Source: Alteromonas sp. M12
Lineage (GTDB): Bacteria > Pseudomonadota > Gammaproteobacteria > Enterobacterales > Alteromonadaceae
DNA: 64,000 nt
Assembly: GCF_037478005.1 (NCBI RefSeq)
Contig: NZ_CP144164.1
Span: 1,116,001-1,180,000, forward strand
Reading direction: 5' to 3'
The notes under the pieces are model-generated. The model saw only the letters and a program-made list of their open reading frames with translations, searched no databases and was not told the DNA's origin. This document shows positions 17,812-29,046 of the stretch, piece by piece. Within the stretch, counting starts at the first letter, position 1, and each line of letters opens with the position of its first letter. The translations under genes and the position numbers were made by a program.

Positions 17812-18450
17812 TTAACGCGATCTTATTCTTAACATAGTTAACAGCATTATTCCCAACAAGCCAATAGTAGCCGGTTCTGAAACTGCTACGCTAGAAATAG
17901 AAACGTTATCTAACGAAAATTCGGGGTTGCAAACAGTTAGACAAACACCTGAAAATTCTAATAAAGAAAGACCTGTAAATCCGCTCGCAGTAAACGTTTG
18001 CAAACCATTAATCTCGTCTTTTATTGTATCTAAATCGAACACTTGAGTAATCGATCCGCCCGCGGCAAAGTAGCCTATTACTTGAATAGAATTCGACCAA
18101 GCATGAGGAAGGTTATCCCAAGTTTCGCCGCCGTCGAAACCAACTAAATTAAAAGTCTCAGTTGATGACATTGTAATTGTAGAATTATTAAATGAATACA
18201 AAGCTGTAGTCGTATTGCCTGATAGTCGGTCATCGTTTGTGCTAGAGTTTAAAGCGGCAAAACTACCTGAATGAGAAAATGTAACGTTGCCTGATGTATA
18301 CATTGATGAGTTAGCGTAAGCCGTCCAACTAGCTGTTACATCATCAAAATTGATTAGCGTTGCGTTGGCAACATTACTAATGACTAATATTGAAATTAGA
18401 CCTATTAATTTTCCTGCACTTTTACATATTTTGTTAATTGAAGCGTTCAT
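17812..18450 (-). CDS. PEP-CTERM sorting-domain protein
   Basis: 212-aa secreted protein. An N-terminal signal peptide ends near NANA (about residue 30). The mature part is rich in Ser, Thr and Asn with a lectin/beta-sandwich look (residues 31-188, LINFDDVTASWTAY, NLVGFDGGE, SLDNVSISSV). The C-terminus is SEPATIGLLGIMLLTMLRIRSR: the EPxxxGLLG signature, a hydrophobic helix and a basic tail, as in PEP-CTERM proteins that are sorted by exosortase (EpsH/XrtA systems) to the exopolysaccharide-coated surface. Two cysteines (CLTVC) may pair. No exosortase is in this window, so the sorting enzyme must be elsewhere. A terminator follows. Confidence 0.85.
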   Translation of the reverse strand: MNASINKICKSAGKLIGLISILVISNVANATLINFDDVTASWTAYANSSMYTSGNVTFSHSGSFAALNSSTNDDRLSGNTTTALYSFNNSTITMSSTETFNLVGFDGGETWDNLPHAWSNSIQVIGYFAAGGSITQVFDLDTIKDEINGLQTFTASGFTGLSLLEFSGVCLTVCNPEFSLDNVSISSVAVSEPATIGLLGIMLLTMLRIRSR

Positions 18451-21329: not shown

Positions 21330-24300
21330 TTATTTGTTTAAATGGGAATAAATCACTCTGAGCGTGGTCATGATGGATTCTTTTACGCTAGGCCAGAAAA
21401 TGGAAATGCTATCAACTTGTCCTTGCCGGAAGTCTGCTTCTAATCGAGTCGCAACATCGTCTAATGGATTAGAGTTAACTTTGCGAGCAATATGTGCAAG
21501 CTTGCGTGCTTGTGTCAGTATTGCGCTGTTGTTGTCTTCCATCACTGCATTATCCATATTTTGCATGGCACTTTCTAATTCACTCATTAACGCACCAAGA
21601 TCAATTGCCAGCGATTGTTTAGGTGGATTCTTTTGCAAGAATGGCAATAAATCGAACCAAATATGAGGATCCCTTGGCATATCTAGCTTGGCAAATTCAG
21701 GGGTTTCTTGAACTTCAGGAGTAGGGCGTTGTTCTTGCGCTTGTTTCAATTCCTCTTTGTGGGCTGCGACAAGGGCTTTTTCTTTAACTTGCAATTTGGC
21801 CTGACTGGATTCAAGTTGCTTTTGTGCTTGCTGCAGCTCAGTTTCTTTATTGGCAATTTGACTCTTATTGCTAATTAACTCTTGTTCTAGCTGCTTTAAT
21901 TTTTCACTTAATTCTGACTGATTGTTATCTTGCGCGCTTAAACTGGCTTTTGTGTTGTCGTATTCAGCTTGGATTGCCTGTAATTCAGTAGCCAACTGTT
22001 GTTGCTCATTTTGCATTTTTTGCACATTTTGTTCGCTGTTTTGCAATGCTTTTTGCTGTTCAGCCAGTTGTTGCTGCAGCTTCAATTCCTGCTGTTCCTG
22101 TTGTTTTAGTCTGTCTTGCAATTCTTGAGCTTCTCGTTTTGCTTGCTCTAATTCAGACTGCAATTTCTGTTCACCAGATTGAGTATCACTGACCTGTGAT
22201 TCTGCACGTTGTAATTCTTGTAGACTTTGTTGCAGTTTCTCCTGCATTTGTTGGTTTTGACGCTCAGCTTCAAGTAATGATTGTTGCAATTGTTTTTTCT
22301 GTTGCTCGATTTCTGCATGGTGTTGACGCCACTGTTCATCGCTTCCTTGCAACATTTCTTTTTGTTTAGTAGCGCGGTTTTCCACGTCTGATAATTCTAG
22401 TTTTAACTGATCTAGCTTCTGTTGCTGTTCAAGACGTTGACGTTTTTCTTTGTCAGTTTGGCGCTGATTTTCGTCTAATTGTTTCTGGGTCAACTGCAGT
22501 TGTGATTGTTTTGCTTGTACTTCTTTTTTCAAGGCTTCTTGACGTTGTTGCCACTGTTGATCACTTTCTTGCATTTCCCGTTGCTGCTCAGAGCTGCGTT
22601 GCTCCATTTCTAGCAATTCAGATTGCAGCTGCTCAAAAATCTTTTGCTGTTGCTGCTTAGCTTCTTTTTCTGCTTCAGTTTGGCGTGCGGTTTGTTGCAA
22701 AGCTTGTTCGGTTTCAAGTAATTTCTGTTGTTTAATTTGCAGTTCTTTTTGCAACGCATCTTGTTTATCTTTCCAGCGACGGTTTGCTTCTTCGATAATC
22801 TGTTTTTGCTGCTGTTCACTGCGTTTTTCCATATCGACTAATTCAGATTGTAAACGCTGCATTAATTCACGTTGTTGTGCTTTTTCTGCCTCAGTTTGTT
22901 GCTTGGCTTGATTTAAGTTCTGTTCCGCTTGTTTCAGCTTTTGCTGTTGCTGTTCCCGCTCTTGTTGCCATTGGCGTTGCTGTTCTTGCAGTCTTAATTC
23001 TGCTTCATCATTTTTTTGTTGCTGCTGCAATTCGCTGCGTCTTTCCATTTCAGCTAATTCTTGTTGTAACTTTTCAAACACTTTTTGCTGCTGAGCTTTG
23101 GCTGATTTTTCTGCTTCGAACTGTTGCTCTTGTTGCTGCAAAATACGTTGAGTTTCTTGCAGTTTTTGTTGTTTACTGTGTAGCTCTTGTTGCAGTTTTT
23201 GCTGTTGCTGAGCCCAGTGTTTATCGGCTTCAGCTATTTTTTGTTGCTGCTGTTCACTGCGGCGTTCTACTTCTTTTAAGTCTTCTTGTAATTGTTGTAA
23301 CCGCTGTTGTTGAAGTTGTTTTTCAGCTTTATCTTGTTCTGATTGGCGTTTGGTTTCGTTTAAAATACCTTGGGTTTTTTGCAACTGGCGTTGTTTATTT
23401 TCAAGCTCTTGTTGTAACAATGCCTGTTGTTTTTCCATGTCGCCTTTTTGCTGATTAGACATTTCTTCAAACTTGTCCATTTCATGTTGCAAATGATCAA
23501 TGTGGCGAGCTTTATTGGATAGTTCAGATTGTGCAACAAAACAGGATTGTTCTAAGTCGCGACGTTGTTTTTCAGCTAGTTCGCTGGCTTTTCGTTGGTT
23601 AATTAACAGTTGGCGTAATTTCTCACTGGCTTGGCTGGAGCTCGATAACTTCGATTGCAAGGCGCTAATCTGACCGTTTACATCTGAAATTTGTTTGTCT
23701 TTTTGATAAATAGACGACTTGAGATCACTAATTTGCCCCTCAAAAGCTGCCATTTTTTGTTGTTGTTCTTGTCGTTCAAGTTCTAAATTACTGGCGGTTT
23801 TTTCACTTTCAGCTAGCTCTTTTTGCGCATCTTTATACTTTTTATTACTGTACTGGAGTTCATCGGCAATTTGATTTCGTTGTTTTTCTAAGCCATGAAT
23901 TCGTTTACTGGTTTGTTCAAGTTGATCGGCTAAATCTTGGTTGGCTTTTTCACTGTTGGCCAGTGATTCTCGACTTTGTTGATAGTCTTGCTGCAATTGA
24001 GTTAAATGTGCAGTGACATTGTCATGTGCTTGCTGCAAAGTAGTTAGCTCTGAGGTTTTATCGGATATATCGTCTTCCGCCGCTTTTAACTTCGATTGGG
24101 TAGCTGATAACGACCTTACTTTGCTGGCAAGTTGGTCTTGACTGCTTTCTAACAACTGTTGCTTCTCAACAATTAATCGCTCGGCCGCCTGATGTAAGTT
24201 AATTGCTTCTAAGCGTTCTTGGTCGGCTTTTTTGATCGCTCTAAGATCCGTCCAAATACACAAGATTGAATCAAAATCTTGGCCTTTAAACATAGGTACA

Positions 24301-26285
24301 AATGTGGCCTGACAGGGCAGTTTGTTGCTACCTCGGCTATGTTGCCAGGTCATTGATAACGCTTTTCCGTCTTGTTTTATTTGCTCAATTTTGTTCTGGA
24401 AGTTTTCGAGATCAGCTTCACTATCATTCAGTTTTTTAGAGTATGGGTAGTGTCCAAATAGGTCTTCTTCGTCTTCCACAGAGAAAAACTCACAGGCCGC
24501 AGGGTTTAGTTTATTGAAGCCATTTTCGGTTAATACGGCCATTGGCATGCTGCTGTGTTGCAACAAACTCTCGAATTTATCTTGTTGATATTGCTCATCA
24601 CTAATGTCGGATATCCAGCACAAAAAGTGCTGTTTTTCGCGGTCAAACAGTTCGATGTTCAGTTCACTTGGATGGAGTTGCTGTTGTTTGCCTTTTAAGT
24701 CTGCATGAAATCCTTCTAGGCTGCCATTTTTATGTAATTTCTTGGCGGCTTTTCCAGAGTTTTTGGGATCATTAAATAGTTGATAAAACGAGCCTTTCAT
24801 CAGTTCTTTCTCGGTCAGATCCAAGCGCAGTGTTAATGCTTTATTAGCCTGCACAATGCGATCATCGTCATCAATCATGACTATGCCTAGGGGCGCTTTA
24901 TCAATGATATTAGAGAAATGTTGGCGCTCATGTTCAAGTAGCGCTTTAGTGTGTTGCAGCTCTGTAATATCTTCCATTAAACATATGGAGCCTGCGGGGT
25001 TGCCGGTTTCATCTCGGAAAGATTGAATTTTCACTTTTAAGGTTTTTTTATCACCCGAAGCTAGCTCTAAAGTTATTTCTTTGGCACTGCCGACACTGGC
25101 AGAGTATGCCATGCTGGGGGATTGACCTTGGGGCATGATAGCTTGAATATCAGCAGGCAAAATAGATAGTTGTTTAGCCGGTTGATTGCGTAAATTGTCC
25201 ACAGAAGTATTAAAAAACAATTCAAATGCTGTGTTACATGCAACCACTAAACTATTTTCATCTAGTAGCAGAGTCGGGTGACTAATGGAGCTGAGCATGC
25301 CCTTAACAATTTGTTTGTTAGCGGTTAGTTGATGCTTCAAAACAACTTGCGGACTGATATTGGTGACAGTTATATGGGCTTTTAACGCCTTACCTTTTTC
25401 ATCCAAGGCTAACAGGAAACCGATAAATCTGACAAATAGATCACCTTCATGCGCATCCAATTTACATTCTAAATCAATCTGTTGGCCTCGTTCTAAATCT
25501 TTATATCCTTGATTCCAAGCAAACTGTGTATCTTGTGAAACGTATTGTTCAAACTGTTTTATGTCACCGCTAAGCTGTTTGTCAGTGTTTGTCAGCATGT
25601 TGGAAAAAACGCTATTTGTGCTGAATGTTTTTTCTGACAAGTCGATTTCTAATTGGCCAATTTGGGTGCTATCTAATAATTGGTTATTTAAGCTTAAGGC
25701 ATCGTTTAGGGAATCTATTTGAGTCTGAGAAGCCGAAACGTCGACAATTGATATAATTGAAGCGATCTGTTGTTGATTGTCTTTTTGTGGTGCAAATTCG
25801 AGCACTAAATTTCGATCTTTAACCGGTCCGATAAGTTGCTCTTTGCATTGAATTTTAGCCTTGATTCCGTTTTCAATTTGCGCACTATATTGTTGATCAA
25901 ATAGCGTGTTCAAGCCTTTACCTTGCAAGTTTTCTGCTCTATTTCCTAAATAATATGCCGCTAATTTATTGCAATACTGTATTTCGCCTGCATGATTAAC
26001 TTGAACCATGCCAACGTGGAAATTGTCTAAATACTGGGTGTTTTGCTTGAGAATAAGTTGATTTTCGGCGAGCTGATTAAGCGCTCTTTTTTGATTGATT
26101 TTAAAAAATATCGTTAGCACAAACAGCACAACGAAGATGGCAGCAATAGCAATTAATCCGTATTCAATGTTATCTGCGGATTGCGCCAGTACTTGTTCGC
26201 CAATCGCATACACATTGTTAGTCATCAGCAGTGTGCCAAGCGCAATGCAGGTTTTGGACACTTTTTTAAATACGTGCAGCGTCAT
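21330..26285 (-). CDS. giant membrane-anchored multi-PAS coiled-coil protein with HPt-like tail
   Basis: 1651 aa from the ATG at 26285, which has GGGA eight bases upstream and gives a clean signal peptide (MTLHVFKKVSKTC... to VYA); an ATG at 26306 is an alternative. Order: signal peptide, one transmembrane helix (about 43-61), four or five PAS-like domains (about 83-188, 198-313, 328-443, 453-568, 573-688; e.g. IIDKAPLGIVMIDDDDRIVQ), about 820 residues of Gln/Glu-rich coiled coil (690-1515), and a helical tail (1540-1651) where RKLAHIARKVNSNPL resembles an HPt phospho-His site, His1598. No kinase, GGDEF, EAL or MCP domain is present. The coil holds a repeat of 67-75 residues (LQxELxxMExRSExQQ). 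Two flagellar-type genes follow upstream on the same strand. Function unknown; a polar scaffold or phosphorelay receiver are options. Confidence 0.75.
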   Translation of the reverse strand: MTLHVFKKVSKTCIALGTLLMTNNVYAIGEQVLAQSADNIEYGLIAIAAIFVVLFVLTIFFKINQKRALNQLAENQLILKQNTQYLDNFHVGMVQVNHAGEIQYCNKLAAYYLGNRAENLQGKGLNTLFDQQYSAQIENGIKAKIQCKEQLIGPVKDRNLVLEFAPQKDNQQQIASIISIVDVSASQTQIDSLNDALSLNNQLLDSTQIGQLEIDLSEKTFSTNSVFSNMLTNTDKQLSGDIKQFEQYVSQDTQFAWNQGYKDLERGQQIDLECKLDAHEGDLFVRFIGFLLALDEKGKALKAHITVTNISPQVVLKHQLTANKQIVKGMLSSISHPTLLLDENSLVVACNTAFELFFNTSVDNLRNQPAKQLSILPADIQAIMPQGQSPSMAYSASVGSAKEITLELASGDKKTLKVKIQSFRDETGNPAGSICLMEDITELQHTKALLEHERQHFSNIIDKAPLGIVMIDDDDRIVQANKALTLRLDLTEKELMKGSFYQLFNDPKNSGKAAKKLHKNGSLEGFHADLKGKQQQLHPSELNIELFDREKQHFLCWISDISDEQYQQDKFESLLQHSSMPMAVLTENGFNKLNPAACEFFSVEDEEDLFGHYPYSKKLNDSEADLENFQNKIEQIKQDGKALSMTWQHSRGSNKLPCQATFVPMFKGQDFDSILCIWTDLRAIKKADQERLEAINLHQAAERLIVEKQQLLESSQDQLASKVRSLSATQSKLKAAEDDISDKTSELTTLQQAHDNVTAHLTQLQQDYQQSRESLANSEKANQDLADQLEQTSKRIHGLEKQRNQIADELQYSNKKYKDAQKELAESEKTASNLELERQEQQQKMAAFEGQISDLKSSIYQKDKQISDVNGQISALQSKLSSSSQASEKLRQLLINQRKASELAEKQRRDLEQSCFVAQSELSNKARHIDHLQHEMDKFEEMSNQQKGDMEKQQALLQQELENKQRQLQKTQGILNETKRQSEQDKAEKQLQQQRLQQLQEDLKEVERRSEQQQQKIAEADKHWAQQQQKLQQELHSKQQKLQETQRILQQQEQQFEAEKSAKAQQQKVFEKLQQELAEMERRSELQQQQKNDEAELRLQEQQRQWQQEREQQQQKLKQAEQNLNQAKQQTEAEKAQQRELMQRLQSELVDMEKRSEQQQKQIIEEANRRWKDKQDALQKELQIKQQKLLETEQALQQTARQTEAEKEAKQQQQKIFEQLQSELLEMEQRSSEQQREMQESDQQWQQRQEALKKEVQAKQSQLQLTQKQLDENQRQTDKEKRQRLEQQQKLDQLKLELSDVENRATKQKEMLQGSDEQWRQHHAEIEQQKKQLQQSLLEAERQNQQMQEKLQQSLQELQRAESQVSDTQSGEQKLQSELEQAKREAQELQDRLKQQEQQELKLQQQLAEQQKALQNSEQNVQKMQNEQQQLATELQAIQAEYDNTKASLSAQDNNQSELSEKLKQLEQELISNKSQIANKETELQQAQKQLESSQAKLQVKEKALVAAHKEELKQAQEQRPTPEVQETPEFAKLDMPRDPHIWFDLLPFLQKNPPKQSLAIDLGALMSELESAMQNMDNAVMEDNNSAILTQARKLAHIARKVNSNPLDDVATRLEADFRQGQVDSISIFWPSVKESIMTTLRVIYSHLNK

Positions 26286-26409
26286 TAAATTATTCCCATT
26301 CAACATATTGCAACCAGATTAACCTGTCAGCTTGGTACAACAAATCTTTTTAAAAACAACTAGGTGTAGAAAACAATACGCAAGTCATTGGTAAACAATA
26401 AGTAAGCCA

Positions 26410-26733
26410 TTAGGCTTTGGTCGATAATTTGTGGTGACTTGCCGCCCAGCTTTCAGGAAACTTGCCTTGCAAAACGTATGAAAAGGCGATGAGTTCTGCA
26501 ATCACATGGTACAATTGTTCGGGGATTTCCTGGCCTAAATCCATTCTGGCGAGAAAATCACTGAGATAGGGATCTTCATGCACTAACACACCACTTTGTT
26601 TGGCTAGGGAGACTATTTCTTCTGCTAAGTCACCAAAACCCTTGGCAATAATTTTGGGCGCTTGTTTCTCTCCTTCTTGGTATTGAATACCTACAGCGCT
26701 CTTGGTCTTTTTTGATTTTTTTGGGTCGGTCAT
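26410..26733 (-). CDS. FlhB C-terminal-domain-like protein
   Basis: 107-aa homologue of the cytoplasmic domain of the flagellar export switch FlhB (FlhB/HrpN/YscU/SpaS family), lacking the membrane part. VGIQYQEGEKQAPKIIAKGFGDLAEEIVSLAKQ (residues 14-46) and VHEDPYLSDFLARMDLGQEIPEQLYHVIAELIAFSY match the region after the FlhB autocleavage site. The NPTH cleavage motif itself is absent. Stand-alone copies of this domain are known beside FliK-like genes and are thought to affect hook-length or export control. It starts 12 bases after the FliK-like gene's stop region and is probably co-transcribed with it. Confidence 0.85.
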   Translation of the reverse strand: MTDPKKSKKTKSAVGIQYQEGEKQAPKIIAKGFGDLAEEIVSLAKQSGVLVHEDPYLSDFLARMDLGQEIPEQLYHVIAELIAFSYVLQGKFPESWAASHHKLSTKA

Positions 26734-26745
26734 AATCGTTACTTA

Positions 26746-29046
26746 TTAAGCCTGAGTTTGAAAAATTTGATAAGGACGAGTGTGCAAATGCTCGGGTATT
26801 TTACCTAGCTGGCATTGCGCTTTTGCCACTTCAATACCTAAACTTTTCAATCGTTTTTTGAACAACGGAAGATAGTTATAAACCAGCTCTTTTACAGCTT
26901 CGTTGGATGTGTATAAATCTAGCTCCAATTCATCTTGTTGTAATTTGGCTTTGGTGAGTATCTGGCCGATTTCGCCAATGTCCATTTTCATCGTTAAATG
27001 CCAAATCGCTGACTTGTTGTGTTGTTTTTCAGCGCTAGCGTGTTTTTCTGGTTCGCGTTTTATTAATAACTCGATGTCTTTTTTCTGTTCGCCTACACCG
27101 CTGGGTAAAACATAATAAAATGTTTCTTGTCCTTGCAAGGCTTGTTCGGCGTTACTTAATTTACTCGATTGGTGTTGCGCAAACATACGCCCTAACTGTT
27201 TAAGTAACTGATGCTTCTGTTCCATTTGGTTCAGATCATTCAGGCTGCGCTGGGTTTGCGGAGCCGCTGCTTTGCCGGAACTCGATATGATGCTACTCAC
27301 TATCTGCGCGATTTTTTCACTGTTTTGCGGTTGGTTTCTATTCAATCTAGAAGCTAAGCTAATTTGTAACATCGTCATCAGACCTGCAACAATTCCTTGT
27401 GAGGAAATGGCTTGAGTGAGTTGAATGGGTGACAAATTAAGGGGCGCTTGAGTGATGAGTTGTTTGATGTTTTCAGCGTCAGCCTCTTTGCCTTGCGGTG
27501 TGCCTTGTTGCAGCTGTTTCAATATCGCTTCGGCAAGCGCTTTAGTTTCTGGCGATTTGGCTAAAATGGGATCGCGCAGTGCCATTTCTATATTCTGTAA
27601 GGTTTCGCTTGGACTGGCAGCTTGGGGTAAAACCCGTCGCATTAAATCGCTTATTTGTTCAAGTACTTGTTGTTTTTGAGCTACAGGTATCGAGTCTAAC
27701 TTTTGGGTTAAGGTTTGCAGGTTTTTTTCAATCGTCGTGTTATCTGATTGGATTGCCTTAGCCGCAGCTTCTTTGGGAGTTAGCTGATTTAAGTTGGCTT
27801 CAGCGGCGCGTTTATCGGCACTAGGAGACTGGCCGTCGGCTTGAACCTTGAGATTTAATTCGGGTTTATTGGTTCCCCCATCTGGACGCATAATCGACGT
27901 TTCAGTGGATTGCGCAGTTCCTTGTTTTGCATCACTTGGCAAAAACAGTGCATTTTTAACTTGTTGCACTTGGGCTTCAGTGAGCGGCAGCTGCGCAAGA
28001 GGAGTTTTAACCGGACCTTTAATTTCTCCTTTACCAGCTGCGAGTAAATCGATACTGACATTTTTCACACTAACATCAACATTTAAAAGTTTAGGGATTG
28101 CATTGTCTAAACGTAATTGTGGCTGTTGGGTCAGTGTGTCGATCAATATTTGACGAGGAACCGCTAATGAAATGTTGTGAGATGGATTATTTAGCCGCGC
28201 AGAATCAGATTGTAACAATTTAACGATATCTGGCTTAGTCAAATTAAGCATAATTACTTTTTGCGCAATATTGCTTTGGTTGCTGTGTTGAATTTGCTCG
28301 GGACGTTTCTGTAATTGGATGTTTTGGGAATATTTGTCTGCCGTTACTTGTTGGTTTATCTGTTCTGACTTTCCCGATTGAATAGCCTCTTTGGGGGCGG
28401 CAGGATTCAGGTTATTCCCATCCGTTTTTGCAACACTCTGGGAGATGTTTGGGCTGTCTACTATCAGCCTAACCTGCCATTGGTTACCCTTTGGGGTTAT
28501 CTGCAATTGGACATTTTGATTGCTTGGCAACACTTTTGCTGACGCCGGTAAATTCACACTGATTATTTGTGATTTAGCATTAATCGAGGTTGCTAAATTG
28601 GCTGTGTTGCCATTGATACTAATCACTTTTGCATCCACAGCGACATTGTTAGTTTGTGCTGCTGGTGAAGCCTTGCTGCTAATAGCATTTAAAATGGTTG
28701 CGAGTTGTTTTTGATTGAGGCTGGCAATTACCGATTGAACGTCTGTTTTGGTTGACGGACTGTATAACAATAGTGCTGAAGTAGTATTTTGATTACCCGA
28801 CGAACTGGTATGATTCTGTAATTGCGCTTGCACTTGTGTCGCGTTTAACGACTGTGGCAAGTTATTCGGTCGTGGCAAGGTCACTGTTTGTTGCTGTTTG
28901 GGTAGCGTTAAAGCAATTTGATTATTAGCTAAAAATTGAATAATAACCTGCGCAGCCTGCTTTGCTACTGGCGAGTTTGATGACAACTTCGAAAGCTGAG
29001 CGGCAGCCTGCACAAGTTGTTGAGCGTTTAGTGATATATCTGACAT
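26746..29046 (-). CDS. FliK-like hook-length control family protein
   Basis: 766 aa. The first 600 residues are low-complexity, rich in Gln, Asn, Ser, Thr and Pro, as in FliK ruler regions. The C-terminus (about 640-750) has the Flg_hook-like fold: SAIWHLTMKMDIGEIGQILTK, ELELDLYTSNEAVKELVYNYL and KKRLKSLGIEVAKAQCQLG. It precedes the FlhB-like gene, a pairing that suggests a role in type III export substrate switching. At 766 aa it is longer than typical FliK. It is not in a classical flagellar cluster here; its neighbours are the ccm operon and the giant PAS protein. It may be a paralogue of the main fliK. Confidence 0.8.
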   Translation of the reverse strand: MSDISLNAQQLVQAAAQLSKLSSNSPVAKQAAQVIIQFLANNQIALTLPKQQQTVTLPRPNNLPQSLNATQVQAQLQNHTSSSGNQNTTSALLLYSPSTKTDVQSVIASLNQKQLATILNAISSKASPAAQTNNVAVDAKVISINGNTANLATSINAKSQIISVNLPASAKVLPSNQNVQLQITPKGNQWQVRLIVDSPNISQSVAKTDGNNLNPAAPKEAIQSGKSEQINQQVTADKYSQNIQLQKRPEQIQHSNQSNIAQKVIMLNLTKPDIVKLLQSDSARLNNPSHNISLAVPRQILIDTLTQQPQLRLDNAIPKLLNVDVSVKNVSIDLLAAGKGEIKGPVKTPLAQLPLTEAQVQQVKNALFLPSDAKQGTAQSTETSIMRPDGGTNKPELNLKVQADGQSPSADKRAAEANLNQLTPKEAAAKAIQSDNTTIEKNLQTLTQKLDSIPVAQKQQVLEQISDLMRRVLPQAASPSETLQNIEMALRDPILAKSPETKALAEAILKQLQQGTPQGKEADAENIKQLITQAPLNLSPIQLTQAISSQGIVAGLMTMLQISLASRLNRNQPQNSEKIAQIVSSIISSSGKAAAPQTQRSLNDLNQMEQKHQLLKQLGRMFAQHQSSKLSNAEQALQGQETFYYVLPSGVGEQKKDIELLIKREPEKHASAEKQHNKSAIWHLTMKMDIGEIGQILTKAKLQQDELELDLYTSNEAVKELVYNYLPLFKKRLKSLGIEVAKAQCQLGKIPEHLHTRPYQIFQTQA

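Follow-up and report, generated by a model that had tools for sequence, protein, structure and literature searches.

The window analyzed here, a 64,000-nucleotide stretch of DNA from Alteromonas sp. M12, encodes a protein of marine bacteria that looks like a sensor-controlled tether and not a relay. It is anchored in the membrane and combines an array of PAS folds with a long repetitive coiled coil and a C-terminal domain which, judged from its sequence, is a pseudo-HPt whose phosphate-accepting His is gone. Computation supports the membrane anchor, the PAS folds, the coil, the repeat, the HPt ancestry of the tail and the loss of the His; we infer the orientation, the dimer, the docking, the PAS control and the role of length. 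Full-text literature searches, judged by their listings and by the opening lines of abstracts, returned no paper that we recognized as describing the protein family, in keeping with a first-pass annotation of this DNA, to which the combination was not familiar as a described family. The features of the gene and its upstream neighbors are collected in Table 1.

Table 1. Features of the gene and its neighborhood in window coordinates; residues follow the 1658-aa count.
Feature	Coordinates	Strand	Residues and basis
Whole gene	21330..26306	(-)	1658 codons from first ATG, 1651 from ATG at 26285
Likely signal peptide	26205..26285	(-)	8-34, end VYA; read from sequence
Transmembrane helix	26103..26159	(-)	50-68; preceded by about 15 residues outside
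PAS1	25740..26012	(-)	99-189; secondary structure of AlphaFold model m57420e99a128
PAS2	25359..25658	(-)	217-316; AlphaFold model m57420e99a128
PAS3	24969..25274	(-)	345-446; Pfam and AlphaFold model; profile match to solved DosP
PAS4	24606..24887	(-)	474-567; Pfam and AlphaFold model
PAS5	24246..24542	(-)	589-687; AlphaFold model m57420e99a128
Coiled-coil rod	21726..24242	(-)	689-1527; heptad-range periodicity
Six 74-residue repeat units	22212..23492	(-)	939-1365; first and last incomplete
Pseudo-HPt head	21333..21710	(-)	1533-1658; fold model, PDB match, family profile
Arg1601	21504..21506	(-)	Equivalent of HPt phospho-His
His1605 (1598 in first-pass annotation)	21492..21494	(-)	At HPt glycine position
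FlhB C-terminal-like gene	26410..26733	(-)	PF01312 over cut-off; TIGR00789 best NCBIfam match, below cut-off
FliK-like gene	26746..29046	(-)	PF02120

Gene, membrane anchor and PAS array

The first-pass annotation had placed a 1651-aa protein at 21330-26285, which corresponds to the same minus-strand open reading frame read from the second ATG; the database copy P0002 also has this length (1651 aa). Residue n of that annotation is n+7 in the numbering used here. Searching its own genome gave one match to the protein at E ≤ 0.001. In a scan of named genomes (four loci), Aliiglaciecola lipolytica strain D2R05 matched across the whole protein, with 100% in the best segment. Database copies, where they are named, are called PAS domain S-box or PAS domain-containing protein. 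P0043, P0046, P0048 and others carry the misnomer epidermal growth factor receptor substrate 15, which probably stems from coiled-coil similarity. Promoter and terminator scans of the DNA gave signals no higher than in shuffles.

At the N-terminus, the transmembrane helix has a mean hydropathy of 3.03 over 19 residues, and a hydropathy stretch of at least 2.0 is present in 37 of 37 family N-termini, which bears out the proposal of a membrane tether. A candidate cleavage site was found in 36 of the 37 (the exception being L062) by a loose pattern applied without a control, which chose a later site in the window protein and some other members. Given the transmembrane stretch in every member and the signal-peptide-like candidate in all but one, we infer a probable N-out, C-in topology.

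Pfam PAS_9 passed its cut-off on four stretches. Furthermore, AlphaFold, run on residues 73-742 (single chain, 11 sequences), gave a model with a mean pLDDT of 82 whose secondary structure comprises five PAS-like folds with helices between them, and after these a long exit helix; at a pTM as low as 0.41, the inter-domain arrangement is not reliable. Foldseek matched this model to PAS tandems, e.g. PpsR, FixL and DosP, and the protein has the serial PAS folds by which a PAS-domain sensor is recognized. A clue to a PAS cofactor was sought among the profile and Foldseek matches, which were general PAS matches only. Solely PAS families passed the Pfam cut-offs: neither HisKA, HATPase or receiver domains nor any output enzyme did so, and the domain set of a hybrid histidine kinase is absent at these cut-offs. 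Both parts of the earlier description, several PAS domains and no output enzyme, were hence upheld. An identity with SMC/Rad50 was rejected, the SMC matches being far below their cut-offs and no ATPase domain being over cut-off.

The coiled-coil rod and its 74-residue repeat

No proline occurs anywhere in residues 672-1527. The hydrophobic period in three rod stretches is 3.50-3.56, with a power of 17-20 against a shuffle 95th percentile of about 6. Six starts of the repeat motif, at residues 939, 1006, 1080, 1152, 1227 and 1301, reproduce exactly the spacings of 67, 74, 72, 75 and 74 residues that the first-pass annotation had counted. An offset of 74 scored 0.47; across all offsets, 200 heptad-shuffled controls reached no more than 0.33. 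The offset of 14, namely two heptads, outscores it at 0.54, as would be expected of a coil with similar adjacent heptads; an offset of 56 scored 0.43. When offsets from 51 to 160 are compared, 74 comes first in 27 of 37 family proteins but not in ten (L037, L038, L054, L059, L060, L063, L064 and L066-L068). The repeat region consists of 30% Q, yet its register is kept in relatives; we regard the 70-odd-residue repeat as genuine. At the DNA level, no tandem array matching the protein repeat was found.

A profile of the unit detected 3 to 8 units in 105 of 109 family proteins (37 from loci, window included, and 72 from the database, with overlaps) and none in the other four (L054, L066, L067 and L068). 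Proteins with four units are 1463-1548 aa long (58 of the 109), those with five 1593-1600 aa (3), with six 1643-1675 aa (34), with seven 1738-1749 aa (3) and with eight 1789-1812 aa (4), the length rising by about 75 residues per added unit. For 99 distinct proteins placed on a tree, the unit number required 14 parsimony changes against a shuffled mean of 37, and seven of these 14 inferred changes were of exactly two units. Three proteins assigned three units (1492, 1497 and 1510 aa) match the 4-unit proteins in length; the three 4-to-3 changes on the tree are therefore probably missed weak terminal units. As read from this tree, the unit number is inherited, yet it has repeatedly changed. Unit numbers are mostly even, being 4, 6 or 8 in 96 of the 109 proteins.

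The tail domain and its phosphate site

AlphaFold modeled the tail as a single-chain HPt four-helix bundle (model mb75a42728b2c; pLDDT 90.4). The best structural match of this model in the PDB is the HPt 3myf, with Foldseek E-values below significance (best 0.024). Pfam Hpt matched this tail alone at an E-value of 0.049 with 14.3 bits, under the cut-off of 24.6. Across the members, Pfam Hpt matched 13 of 31 at E ≤ 1, the best at 1.5e-7, and the next family matched three of 31; weak and scattered matches from single members brought the total to 54 families at E ≤ 1. In the order-wide search, the tail profile A1 matched HPts of other proteins, those of true hybrid kinases included, with a best E-value of 4.5e-10. 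Against PDB sequences, the best HPt for the tail profile was again 3myf (E 0.011), outranked by a designed helical protein. Given the weak PDB-sequence and Foldseek E-values, the supported descent of the tail from an HPt rests mainly on the profile matches to HPts and the structural match to 3myf. The degenerate HPt suspected near the C-terminus in the first-pass annotation is confirmed by family profile and fold. At another locus (L082 1-1863, plus strand), a piece of a 1210-aa frame has a sub-threshold Hpt match alone; Pfam found neither a kinase nor a receiver at E ≤ 0.01 in the stretch read, and the frame may be a degenerate hybrid kinase.

The phospho-His column holds His in ten of ten comparison HPts (nine Pfam-confirmed plus L088), and the glycine column Gly in nine of them. 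In the 37 family members, the former column holds Arg in 28, Lys in three, Gln in two, His in three and Ala in one. The window protein, with Arg1601, has neither the phospho-accepting His nor the motif of an HPt. Phosphorelay through the tail domain is unlikely on this alignment, because the true His column is Arg in the window protein, and the phosphorelay scaffold role put forward earlier was not borne out. The His that had been proposed as the candidate, His1605, aligns with the HPt glycine and is a His in five of the 37 members; it is not the phospho-His. L050, L065 and L068 (three of 37) retain a His at the ancestral position, and therefore not every member need be inert.

Conservation within the domain follows a different order as well. 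Family members score lowest in the His helix (0.423), compared with 0.605 for the lid and 0.647 for the last helix, whereas the ten HPts score highest in the His helix (0.581) and lowest in the last helix (0.451). Since these HPts, unlike the family, are a diverse set, and since HPt ends align poorly, only the order of the elements is readable from these values, that of the last helix with care, as its low conservation in the HPts may partly reflect poor alignment to the family columns. By this order, conservation appears to have moved from the His helix to the lid and the last helix, an order opposite to that of true HPts. Taken together with the HPts of hybrid histidine kinases (PF01627; 3myf), the tail shares their fold and a detectable sequence ancestry, but it is without the phospho-His and motif, lid and last helix being conserved instead, and neither a kinase nor a receiver domain exceeded its cut-off in the family protein.

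Putative function and genomic context

The reading we favor, to which we give about an even chance, is that of a membrane-anchored sensory tether presenting a repurposed HPt as a docking head under PAS control. In this model, the signal peptide and one transmembrane helix would hold the protein in the inner membrane, leaving a short stretch outside. Five cytoplasmic PAS domains would lie in series near the membrane, followed by a continuous coiled-coil rod of about 840 residues, probably a parallel dimer. If fully extended, the rod would be about 125 nm long, as estimated from the textbook rise per residue, and the number of 74-residue units would set its length. At the rod tip, the HPt-derived domain, its phosphate-accepting His apparently lost and its conserved parts at the N-terminal lid and the last helix, would dock a putative partner protein. 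The state of the PAS domains would alter the availability of the head via the coil, and the rod would set the distance of the partner from the membrane. The AlphaFold models cover two single-chain pieces, the PAS array and the tail, and neither the rod nor a dimer.

With considerable reserve, we further propose a new class of signaling tether, in which the output of a PAS receptor would be the position of a phosphate-blind HPt head on a stepwise-evolving coiled-coil ruler. If true, the family would be a clear case of phosphorelay components put to mechanical or docking use. Two-component proteins of bacteria tend to be interpreted through their catalytic domains; this conserved family has sensors and a domain of the last-relay type, yet no kinase, a broken relay site and a rod whose length is stepped. 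Its natural series of rod lengths is suited to asking whether reach matters.

Alternatively, the head might bind receiver domains via the old HPt face, acting as a decoy or as a reader of the phospho-state, which we regard as possible though doubtful. The modeled fold is still that of an HPt, and most members (28 of 37) have Arg in the His column. Such a role would have precedents: according to PMC6963811, Arabidopsis AHP6 is an HPt without the phospho-accepting His that competes with the AHPs for kinases and receivers; Caulobacter DivL, as described in PMC4211667, is a PAS-bearing two-component protein with a repurposed catalytic part, a kinase by origin, that binds DivK~P. However, within the family domain no element is less conserved than the His helix, which speaks against retention of the surface that docks receivers. 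The family protein also differs from AHP6 in being membrane-anchored, multidomain and bacterial, and from DivL in that DivL has a histidine-kinase region, of which none was found in the family protein, a rod being in its place.

It appears unlikely that the protein is a structural organizer of the pole, division or chromosome, with the rod as scaffold and the PAS domains mainly for oligomerization. The very long coil and the lack of any enzyme over cut-off would suit such a role. The Myxococcus protein FrzS has a coiled coil. According to PMC1974792, FrzS couples an atypical receiver without the Asp to polar localization; it resembles the family protein in having a signaling domain with its phosphorylation site lost, but the latter has a pseudo-HPt, a PAS array and a membrane anchor. 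Against an organizer stand the SMC-type matches far under their cut-offs and the neighborhoods, none of whose genes was common to the whole family across the 36 fetched stretches, so that no common neighbor hints at division or segregation. AHP6, DivL and FrzS, the nearest analogues, each match the family in one trait.

Of 196 genomes sampled from the taxonomic family, 37, spread over 13 of 52 genera, carry the tail, and in the order sample (295 genomes) the full-strength members were all inside that taxonomic family. The neighbor scan took in 36 stretches, drawn from 35 of these 37, as G116 has two copies; the remaining two genomes are the window's own and G164 (covered by L004, left out of the scan). 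As the first-pass annotation had stated, the gene sits downstream of FlhB-like and FliK-like genes, both directly upstream on the same strand, the former at a distance of 103 bp. The FlhB-like gene (E ≤ 1e-12) is present in 37 of 37 family genomes and 81 of 159 others (Fisher p 6e-10 by genome and 0.002 by genus), and flagellin in 37 of 37 and 143 of 159, all uncorrected for the tree. These observations would fit a regulator of motility or flagellar export acting with the two upstream genes, but we consider this very unlikely. The adjacency is limited to this genus, the FliK and FlhB-like genes lying upstream in the window and five of six same-genus stretches and in none of 30 stretches from other genera. 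In 29 other-genus genomes and G144, the FlhB-like gene either shares no contig with the family gene or is separated from it by 100 kb or more, and the 143 flagellin-bearing sampled genomes hold no family match. A motility operon was thus rejected as a family feature, and the suggested link to motility is not supported at that level. Finally, a working phosphorelay HPt acting via another residue or via His1605, on the same helix four residues past the ancestral position, is scarcely credible, since His1605 occurs in just five of 37 members and the motif lysine and glycine are replaced by Ala1604 and His1605.

Several loci have neighborhoods of their own. Five loci of a single other genus (L051, L052, L053, L056 and L069) have the gene immediately after pdsR/pdsS, with pdsO nearby; the pds names come from tests on L051, with which the remaining four were grouped by clustering, and we take pdsR/pdsS there to be a dedicated-sortase two-component pair. 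Short relatives of 1042-1232 aa (L066 7083-10370, L067 2635-6333 and L068 2303-5431) each adjoin a gene of cluster c22, a predicted membrane coiled-coil protein for whose L068 copy no NCBIfam model reached its cut-off. As a general partner c22 was rejected, its C-terminal part occurring in six of 196 genomes, with no match in the window's genome at E ≤ 0.001. In the window itself, a 212-aa protein encoded at 17812-18450 on the minus strand has a C-terminal end resembling a PEP-CTERM sorting signal.
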